Source: Tatumella sp. JGM118 | GTDB lineage: Bacteria; Pseudomonadota; Gammaproteobacteria; Enterobacterales; Enterobacteriaceae | DNA: 64,000 nt | Direction of reading: 5' to 3' | Assembly: GCF_018257515.1 (NCBI RefSeq) | Contig: NZ_JAERJR010000005.1 | Location: forward strand, 62,001-126,000 | In this document: positions 15,340 to 63,637 of the stretch, in pieces | How positions within the stretch are numbered: position 1 is the stretch's first letter | Layout: the number at the start of each line of letters is the position of its first letter | The notes under the pieces: generated by a model | Databases searched by the model: none | The model's input: the letters and a program-made list of their open reading frames with translations, nothing else | Told to the model about the DNA's origin: nothing | Made by a program: the position numbers and the translations under genes

Positions 15340-15915
15340 ATGATCCGTATTACTGACACTGCCCAGGAGCATTTTTCGAAACTGCTCGCTAAACAGGAAG
15401 AAGGCACCCAGATTCGTGTTTTCGTGATCAATCCGGGGACGCCCAGTGCAGAGTGTGGTGTTTCCTATTGCCCACCCGATGCGGTGGAAAGTACCGATAC
15501 AGAGCTTAACTATGAGCGCCTGACCGCGTATGTCGATGAACTGAGTGCACCTTATCTTGAGGATGCTGAAATCGACTTCGTGACAGATAACCTGGGTTCA
15601 CAGCTCACGCTGAAAGCGCCAAATGCCAAAATGCGTAAAGTCGCAGATGATGCTCCGTTAATTGATCGGGTTGAGTATCTGTTACAGGCACAGATTAACC
15701 CGCAGCTTGCCAGCCACGGCGGTAAAGTCTCTCTGATGGAAATTACCGAAGACGGCTATGCGATTTTGCAGTTCGGTGGCGGATGCAACGGCTGCTCCAT
15801 GGTAGATGTCACCCTGAAAGAAGGGATCGAAAAAGAGATGCTGGCCGCTTTCCCGGAACTGAAAGGGGTGCGTGACCTTACCGAGCACCAGCCAGGCGAA
15901 CACTCTTACTACTGA
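15340..15915 (+). CDS. nfuA: Fe/S biogenesis protein NfuA
   Basis: A 191-residue iron-sulfur carrier, the same length as in E. coli. The N-terminal part is a degenerate A-type domain; the C-terminal Nfu domain has the cluster-binding C-X2-C in [19 protein letters not shown] (Cys ~149 and ~152). It delivers [4Fe-4S] clusters to targets such as aconitase and LipA under oxidative stress or iron limitation. The ATG at 15340 ([12 protein letters not shown]) matches the E. coli start; the in-frame start at 15328 would add MSHT. RyhB, which responds to iron, is also in this window, but no direct link is visible. Confidence 0.96.
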
Positions 15916-24953: not shown

Positions 24954-25649
24954 TCAGACCGGCGGCAAATCGAAGATAAGGACTTCAGTATCCTCTTCCG
25001 CCTGCAGTGTCAGCGCAGACTCTTCTGTCAGCGCAAGTGCGTCACTGGCTTTCAGCGACTGGTCATTGATGGCAAGTTTACCTTTCACCACCTGAACCCA
25101 GTAATTCCGCCCGCTCTCCAGGGAAATATGCTGTGTCTCCCCAGCCGGGACGACCTGGCGGGATAAGGTCATATCCTGCCAGACTTTTAATGAGTCTTCC
25201 CGGCCATCCGGGGTTAATACCCATTGCCGGCCCCGAGGATCGTCAAAACGTTTCTGCTCGTAACGCGGCTCAACACCGGCACGCTGAGGCATAATCCAGA
25301 TCTGATAAAGATGTAACGGCTCCGTCGCGCTCGGATTATATTCCGAATGACGGACCCCCGTACCTGCACTCATGATCTGGAACTCTCCTGCCGGGATCTG
25401 CTCCTTATTGCCCATGCTGTCCTGGTGTTCTACCGTTCCGGAAAGAACATAGGTCAGGATTTCCATATCTTTATGGGGATGTGTCCCGAATCCCTGACCG
25501 GGGGCAATAATGTCTTCATTAATGACCCGTAAGGCCGAAAATCCCATAAAATCAGGGTCATAATAGTTGGCGAAAGAAAAGGTATGCCAGCTCTTCAGCC
25601 AGCCATGGTGTGCGTGACCACGATCTTCTGCTTTACGTAAATAAATCAT
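24954..25649 (-). CDS. yhhW: Pirin-family protein, quercetin dioxygenase-like (YhhW)
   Basis: A 231-residue bicupin, the same length as E. coli YhhW. The metal-binding residues are His in GTHPHKDMEILTY (~57 and ~59) and His/Glu in GVRHSEYNP (~101, ~103). E. coli YhhW has quercetin 2,3-dioxygenase activity; the natural substrate is not established. It is monocistronic with a start (MIYLRKAEDRGHAHHGW) identical in pattern to the E. coli protein. E. coli yhhX is next to it, and it is not found here. Confidence 0.95.
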   Translation of the reverse strand: MIYLRKAEDRGHAHHGWLKSWHTFSFANYYDPDFMGFSALRVINEDIIAPGQGFGTHPHKDMEILTYVLSGTVEHQDSMGNKEQIPAGEFQIMSAGTGVRHSEYNPSATEPLHLYQIWIMPQRAGVEPRYEQKRFDDPRGRQWVLTPDGREDSLKVWQDMTLSRQVVPAGETQHISLESGRNYWVQVVKGKLAINDQSLKASDALALTEESALTLQAEEDTEVLIFDLPPV

Positions 25650-25770: not shown

Positions 25771-25871
25771 AAAAAAAAAGCCAGCCCCGAAGGCTGGCAA
25801 ATTAATACCGGAAGCAATGTGAGCAATGTCGTCTCTCCACCGGAAGTCCGTTAAGGATGACCGGTGAAGAT
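25771..25871 (-). ncRNA. ryhB: Small RNA RyhB
   Basis: On the minus strand the core ACATTGCTCACATTGCT (about 25813-25829) is identical to the seed of E. coli RyhB, followed by TTCCGGTATTA (E. coli TTCCAGTATTA) and a terminator GCCAGCC-loop-GGCTGGC with nine T (25771-25797). RyhB is an Hfq-dependent RNA that represses iron-using protein mRNAs when iron is low. The 5' part forms CACCGG...CCGGTG, as the E. coli 5' stem does in position only. The 5' end near 25871 is estimated from the -10 element at 25878-25883. Position next to yhhW and before yhhA agrees with the E. coli neighbourhood. Confidence 0.92.
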
Positions 25872-25873
25872 GT

Positions 25874-25907
25874 GGTAATAATAATCATTATCATTACTAT
25901 TTGTAAA
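25874..25907 (-). promoter_or_regulatory. ryhB promoter with Fur box
   Basis: On the minus strand TTTACA (25902-25907) and TATTAT (25878-25883) are separated by 18 bases. The 19-bp stretch at 25874-25892 matches the Fur consensus at 17 of 19 positions by my count (GGTAATAAT then AATCATTATC-type right half), overlapping the -10 element. That fits Fur-Fe repression of ryhB. Confidence 0.88.
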
Positions 25908-62014: not shown

Positions 62015-63430
62015 TCAGGAAGATAATGTTCTGATTAAATTGGAGAAATCTTCTTTGATATCGTGACTTTCTTCACGTAACTGCTCTATTTTCCGGCAGG
62101 CGTGGAGTACGGTGGTATGGTCCCGCCCGCCAAAAGCATCACCGATTTCCGGCAGACTATGGTTCGTCAGTTCTTTCGCCATCGCCATTGCCATCTGACG
62201 CGGTCTGGCCACCGAGCGCGAGCGGCGTTTCGATAATAAGTCCGCCACTTTAATTTTATAGTATTCTGCGACGGTTTTCTGAATATTATCGATAGTGACC
62301 AGCTTTTCCTGCAACGCCAGCAGATCACGCAGTGCTTCACGAACAAAGTCGATGGTGATCGCCCTGCCGGTAAAGTTCGCATTCGCGATGACACGGTTCA
62401 GTGCCCCTTCCAGCTCACGGACATTGGAGCGCAGGCGTTTGGCAATAAAAAACGCGACTTCGCCGGGCAGACGGATTTTATTTTCGTCAGCTTTTTTCAT
62501 AAGAATGGCGACGCGAGTCTCAAGCTCGGGCGGTTCGATAGCCACCGTCAGGCCCCAGCCAAAACGCGACTTCAGGCGATCTTCGACCCCATTGATCTCT
62601 TTCGGATACCGATCGGAGGTCAGGATAATTTGCTGGTTACCTTCCAGCAACGCGTTGAAGGTATGAAAAAACTCTTCCTGCGAACGCTCTTTATTCGCAA
62701 AAAACTGAATATCATCGATAAGCAGCGCATCCACCGACCGGTAATAGCGCTTAAATTCTTCAATGGCATTGTTCTGCAATGCCTTTACCATATCCTGCAC
62801 AAAGCGTTCCGAGTGCATATAGACAATTTTTGCATTCGGTTTTCTGGCGATAATACCGTTACCGACAGCATGTAACAGGTGGGTTTTCCCCAGGCCCGTA
62901 CCACCATACAGAAATAACGGATTATAGGCGCCGCCCGGGTTCTCAGCGACCTGCCGCGCGGCCGCGCGGGCCAGCTGGTTTGACTTACCTTCGACAAAGT
63001 TATCAAAGTTATGCCGGCTATTCACATTTGAGCGATAAGCCACTTCCACAGGGGCAGGAACGTTATCCCAGCTGGGGCGACCATCATGACTCGGTGCTGA
63101 AGGCTGACGTACCGGAGGGATCGGCTGCGAAATATTCTGAACGGCAACCGTACTCGCAGCAGGCACCGCCGGTGCTGCCGCTGCAGGCCGTGCACCCACT
63201 TCAAAACGTAATACCGGAATATCCGATCCACAAAACTCATTCAGCAGGCCATTAATACTATTAATGTATTTATCCCGCACCCAGTCGAGTACAAAGCGGT
63301 TTGGTGCGTACAGAGCCAGAGTGTTGTCGTTCAATTCAGCCTGTAAAGGACGGATCCACATACTGAATTCAGTGGCAGGTAATTCATCCTGCAAACGGGT
63401 AAGGCACTGTTGCCAAAGCGTTAGTGACAC
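62015..63430 (-). CDS. dnaA: Chromosomal replication initiator DnaA
   Basis: A 471-residue AAA+ initiator (467 in E. coli). Domain I starts [17 protein letters not shown]; domain II is an Ala/Pro-rich linker (~90-135). Walker [14 protein letters not shown] and Walker [12 protein letters not shown] lie in domain III, and the domain IV signature [18 protein letters not shown] binds DnaA boxes. The GTG at 63430 with GGAG upstream was chosen, as E. coli dnaA also starts with GTG; a longer frame to 63463 adds [11 protein letters not shown]. First gene of dnaA-dnaN-recF-gyrB. Confidence 0.97.
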
Positions 63431-63637
63431 GGCGGACTCCACTGGTACAAAAAAGTAAGACAAGAAATGGTGCTAATCTTTTGAAAAAACTGGTTATTGA
63501 TGCAGACGGAGAAATCGCCTGCTGCAACGATCTGCAATTCATCCCCGCGGTGCGTCCGGAAGGATCGCCAGCGGAACGACGGATCATAACGCAAAGCGGG
63601 CAAGAGATCTTCCTTTTCTACACCGATTTCTCCCATT

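Follow-up and report, generated by a model that had tools for sequence, protein, structure and literature searches.

The window, a stretch of 64,000 nucleotides of Tatumella DNA, almost certainly carries the ryhB gene of a Tatumella species, an ortholog of Escherichia coli ryhB. As predicted from sequence, this RyhB is intact and ordinary. The sequence, the model match, the promoter and Fur-box layout, a predicted hairpin, the terminator, conservation and predicted pairing were all shown by the analysis. A RyhB with a Fur-type promoter site is supported by the Rfam match together with the neighbourhood, the geometry of promoter and Fur box and the conservation in relatives.

The ryhB gene, its promoter and its Fur box

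The Rfam covariance model of RyhB (RF00057) matched the minus strand over the full model length at 25838-25773, with 63.0 bits against a cut-off of 55 and an E-value of 2.2e-9. A sequence-only reading of this DNA had named RyhB and proposed an Rfam search as a check, and that search upheld the call. The same reading had described a preserved E. coli core and a nine-T terminator. Both are present: the core is identical at 21 of 21 nucleotides, and the run of T follows the terminator stem (Table 1). The predicted RNA of 101 nt has a fold z of -4.11 against 200 dinucleotide shuffles.

Table 1. Features of the ryhB locus (positions in the window)
Feature	Position	Strand	Basis
Predicted RyhB transcript	25771..25871	-	Inferred start about 7 nt downstream of the -10 element; ends with the T run; RF00057 match; fold z -4.11
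Target-pairing core, conserved; all 21 nt as in E. coli	25810..25830	-	Sequence comparison
Intrinsic terminator: 8-pair stem 25780-25798, nine T 25771-25779	25771..25798	-	Sequence and terminator stem
5' hairpin with retained pairing and a sequence that has diverged from E. coli	25834..25870	-	Fold tests and relatives
Sigma-70-like promoter, TTTACA - 18 nt - TATTAT	25878..25907	-	10/12 consensus positions
Candidate Fur box, GGTAATAATAATCATTATC	25874..25892	+	17/19; covers the -10 element and some of the spacer
yhhW homologue (pirin-like), conserved downstream neighbour of ryhB	24954..25649	-	Neighbourhood and relatives; no NCBIfam model matched

The candidate Fur box was scored against the 19-bp Fur consensus, GATAATGATAATCATTATC, and the earlier count of 17 matching positions was confirmed. 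At up to three mismatches, 0.01 sites on average are expected by chance (100 dinucleotide shuffles of the window). The same threshold gave 11 rows across the 3.68-Mb genome and one row in the backwards control, and the window box is one of two places genome-wide with two mismatches. The other is a Fur-like site at G000:C11:318004-318022 (L127). The promoter match is weak when taken alone, because 1.1 promoter-like sites were expected in the 700 bases scanned and three were returned.

Gene neighbourhood

The gene downstream of ryhB is presumably yhhW, a name given by position. Its protein shares 97% identity with its counterpart from Tatumella ptyseos ATCC 33301, the top match among the best 80 of 581, and the next two, at 81 and 79%, are also from Tatumella. 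The 97% match indicates that the genome belongs to a close Tatumella relative of T. ptyseos. The gene order is gluconate transporter, gluconokinase, gntR, yhhW, ryhB, a DUF2756-like frame (37.5 bits, under the model cut-off of 136) and a glycerophosphodiester phosphodiesterase gene. The E. coli locus reads gntR, yhhW, yhhX, ryhB, yhhY. Downstream of ryhB lies yhhW in both, and neither yhhX nor yhhY was found in the Tatumella yhhW-ryhB stretch or its flanks.

One other RNA family was matched in the window. AsdA, the antisense RNA of dnaA, was found at 62828-62908 on the plus strand (63.5 bits, cut-off 52). The match lies antisense within the dnaA coding sequence (62015-63463, minus strand), so it may reflect conservation of dnaA rather than an RNA gene.

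Conservation among relatives and copy number

Relatives linked to yhhW were taken from the best 80 of 581 yhhW loci. The RyhB core was found in 74 of these 80 loci, exactly in 71 and with one mismatch in three; it was not seen within the flanking DNA examined in the remaining six. Among these best 80, an upstream Fur match of at least 15/19 accompanies the core in 73 of the 74 core-bearing loci. The best upstream matches range from 14 to 18 of 19 positions, against 9 to 13 after one shuffle of each upstream region.

At the level of the family, 74 of 119 sampled genomes have an Rfam RyhB match with an E-value of at most 0.01, in 73 of them over the cut-off. Of the 74 RyhB-bearing genomes, 51 have at least two matches, counting some that fall short of the cut-off. 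The 20 RyhB-negative genomes that were listed measure 0.4 to 2.4 Mb and, by these sizes, are mostly reduced; 25 further negatives stand outside that list.

Within Tatumella, all six genomes carry a yhhW-linked RyhB whose core is exact; one of these copies scores 48.6 bits, under the Rfam cut-off. Five of the six also contain a second copy, without an adjoining yhhW. In the genome studied here the second copy lies on the minus strand at G000:C11:201543-201606 (L001), and it has a long 5' hairpin. Its neighbours are an ElaB-like frame, below the cut-off of that model, and a frame that is presumably GppA-like. Chance was taken to explain three weak Rfam RyhB matches elsewhere in the genome (15-19 bits), and likewise a match of 30.7 bits, without the core, in another Tatumella (L095).

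The second copy raises the question of whether the window RyhB is a remnant whose function was lost once the other took over. The second copy scores slightly higher, at 66.1 bits, and has its own Fur-like box (16/19, three mismatches), which starts 39 nt upstream of the model match. However, the window copy looks intact in core, promoter, Fur box, hairpin and terminator, its Fur box has fewer mismatches (two against three), and the yhhW-linked copy is retained in 6/6 Tatumella genomes, against 5/6 for the other. Loss of function in the window copy is thus very improbable.

The 5' segment

The sequence-only reading had observed that the 5' segment differs from E. coli while the core seed is the same, and had suggested that target choice outside the core may differ. 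Both observations were borne out. The suggestion was not: for the five Tatumella regions tested, the 5' segment paired equally well or better with 18 to 29 of the 43 background regions, and in relatives this segment is a hairpin. On these two grounds altered target choice was rejected. Among the best 80 of 581 loci, all 74 relatives with the core have a segment from Fur box to core that folds better than its shuffled versions do on average. With 100 mononucleotide shuffles per segment, the z-score is below -1 in 69 of the 74; that of E. coli is -1.5 and that of the window -4.5. As read here from sequence comparison, the 5' segment follows the ordinary pattern, in which the sequence varies and the hairpin stays, with no sign of new targets. 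In the part of a review consulted on Yersinia RyhB, 5' variation is said to possibly permit differences in activity or stability (PMC4211561). The stretch from Fur box to core is about twice the usual length in two Pectobacterium loci (86 nt each in L063 and L078) and in one of Samsonia (108 nt in L072).

A further reading of the RNA is that it is bifunctional and doubles as the message for the short peptide RyhP, a role put forward for E. coli O157:H7. In E. coli, according to the excerpt consulted, RyhP is the nonapeptide MAHIASSIT (PMC5331693). A frame that starts with ATT and begins M-A-H-I-A-S is present in Tatumella RyhB, but it has no stop in the 30 codons read, where a frame of nine codons with a stop was looked for. 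Among the best 80 of 581 loci, a stop after 8 or 9 residues occurs in 44 of 74 relatives and is missing in 30. RyhP was rejected for Tatumella on account of the frame without a stop, and a peptide-coding role is very unlikely.

Proposed mechanism and target pairing

Expression, Fur binding, Hfq dependence and repression are all expected here by analogy with the RyhB family. With ample iron, Fur carrying iron would occupy the box over the -10 element and block ryhB transcription. When iron is short, the RNA of about 100 nt would be made, and together with Hfq its conserved core would pair at the start regions of mRNAs that encode iron-using proteins. The likeliest targets here would be sdhC and erpA, whose expression would be lowered. 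For the related Pantoea ananatis, the excerpt consulted reports RyhB and RyhB2 among the intergenic Hfq-dependent small RNAs; in the same excerpt, as a counter-point to this account, ryhB2 was higher, not lower, in an hfq mutant by qRT-PCR (PMC6749038).

Pairing was calculated as a simple duplex of the core with start regions. The background consisted of 43 start regions, hand-picked from the 62 frames of the window with nfuA and short or doubtful frames excluded. The first start codon of each frame was used, so some true starts will have been missed. The test is crude, because it ignores mRNA structure and Hfq and because known E. coli targets are equalled or bettered by background regions: with the E. 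coli core, 2 of the 43 paired at least as well as erpA, 6 at least as well as sodB and 8 at least as well as sdhC, and 17 of 200 shuffled cores paired with E. coli sdhC as well as the real core did.

Among the five Tatumella genes tested, sdhC and erpA paired best. The duplex with sdhC (-29.7 kcal/mol) was better than those of all 43 background regions, and that with erpA (-25.0 kcal/mol) was better than all but one. In the six Tatumella genomes, where sdhC presumably starts with GTG or TTG, 0, 1, 8, 17, 25 and 28 of 500 shuffled cores matched the real core at sdhC; at erpA, 2 to 11 of 200 did so. An iscA/sufA-type gene was equalled or bettered by four of the 43 background regions. Tatumella sodA, which is not a proposed target, was equalled or bettered by only 8.

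The gene nfuA had been pointed out as an iron-linked gene in the same window. It is indeed there, at 15340-15915 and about 10 kb from ryhB, but it shows no sign of a special link: 21 of the 43 background regions did at least as well as its start region in pairing to the core, and nfuA was rejected as a RyhB target on this rank. It looks like a chance neighbour of ryhB. In E. coli, according to the excerpt consulted, the nfuA promoter is repressed by holo-IscR (PMC5040110).

RyhB and the apparent absence of sodB

In E. coli, sodB is a RyhB target according to the excerpt consulted (PMC4114697), and its apparent absence here counts against the account given above. A literature search on RyhB in organisms lacking sodB added nothing of use to that paper. 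The gene was not found in any of the six Tatumella genomes, in each of which an E. coli SodB query gave one match of 47-48% identity. The sole Fe/Mn superoxide dismutase detected by PF00081 in this genome is of the Mn type (sodA, L136; NF008177, 430 bits, cut-off 363). Across the 119 family genomes, a SodB match of at least 74% identity occurs in 38, all among the 74 that bear RyhB; one of these matches has stops inside and comes from a genome that is 49% complete. In the other 36 RyhB-bearing genomes, the same query gave no match resembling E. coli SodB.

The chances are about even that Tatumella has a RyhB system without sodB, in which two copies sharing one core are retained to hold down sdhCDAB and Fe-S genes. 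If so, retention of RyhB would be independent of sodB, and this may extend to about half of the RyhB-bearing genomes of the family. The apparent absence of sodB makes this a natural setting in which to ask what targets maintain selection on RyhB.

Comparison with known systems

No mention of RyhB in Tatumella was found in the open-access literature searched, and the present gene adds RyhB to this genus. The RyhB of E. coli K-12 (NC_000913.3, 3580922-3581016) has the same 21-nt core, the same type of terminator with nine T, and yhhW on the same side. In contrast, the 5' hairpin of the Tatumella RNA has another sequence, CCGG stands for CCAG at the end of the core, and yhhX and yhhY do not adjoin the gene. 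The yhhW-linked RyhB of T. ptyseos ATCC 33301 (L006) is near-identical in promoter, Fur box, hairpin stem and terminator, and differs by three substitutions within the 42-nt 5' segment.

Sibling RyhBs are described in the part of the review consulted for Salmonella (RfrA and RfrB) and Yersinia (RyhB1 and RyhB2), which, like Tatumella, have two distant copies, one of them in the E. coli context (PMC4211561). Pantoea ananatis, as far as the excerpt goes, also has two distant copies, RyhB and RyhB2 (PMC6749038). The likeness to the Tatumella pair extends to the core, which is nearly identical in Yersinia RyhB1 and RyhB2 according to the same part of the review (PMC4211561).
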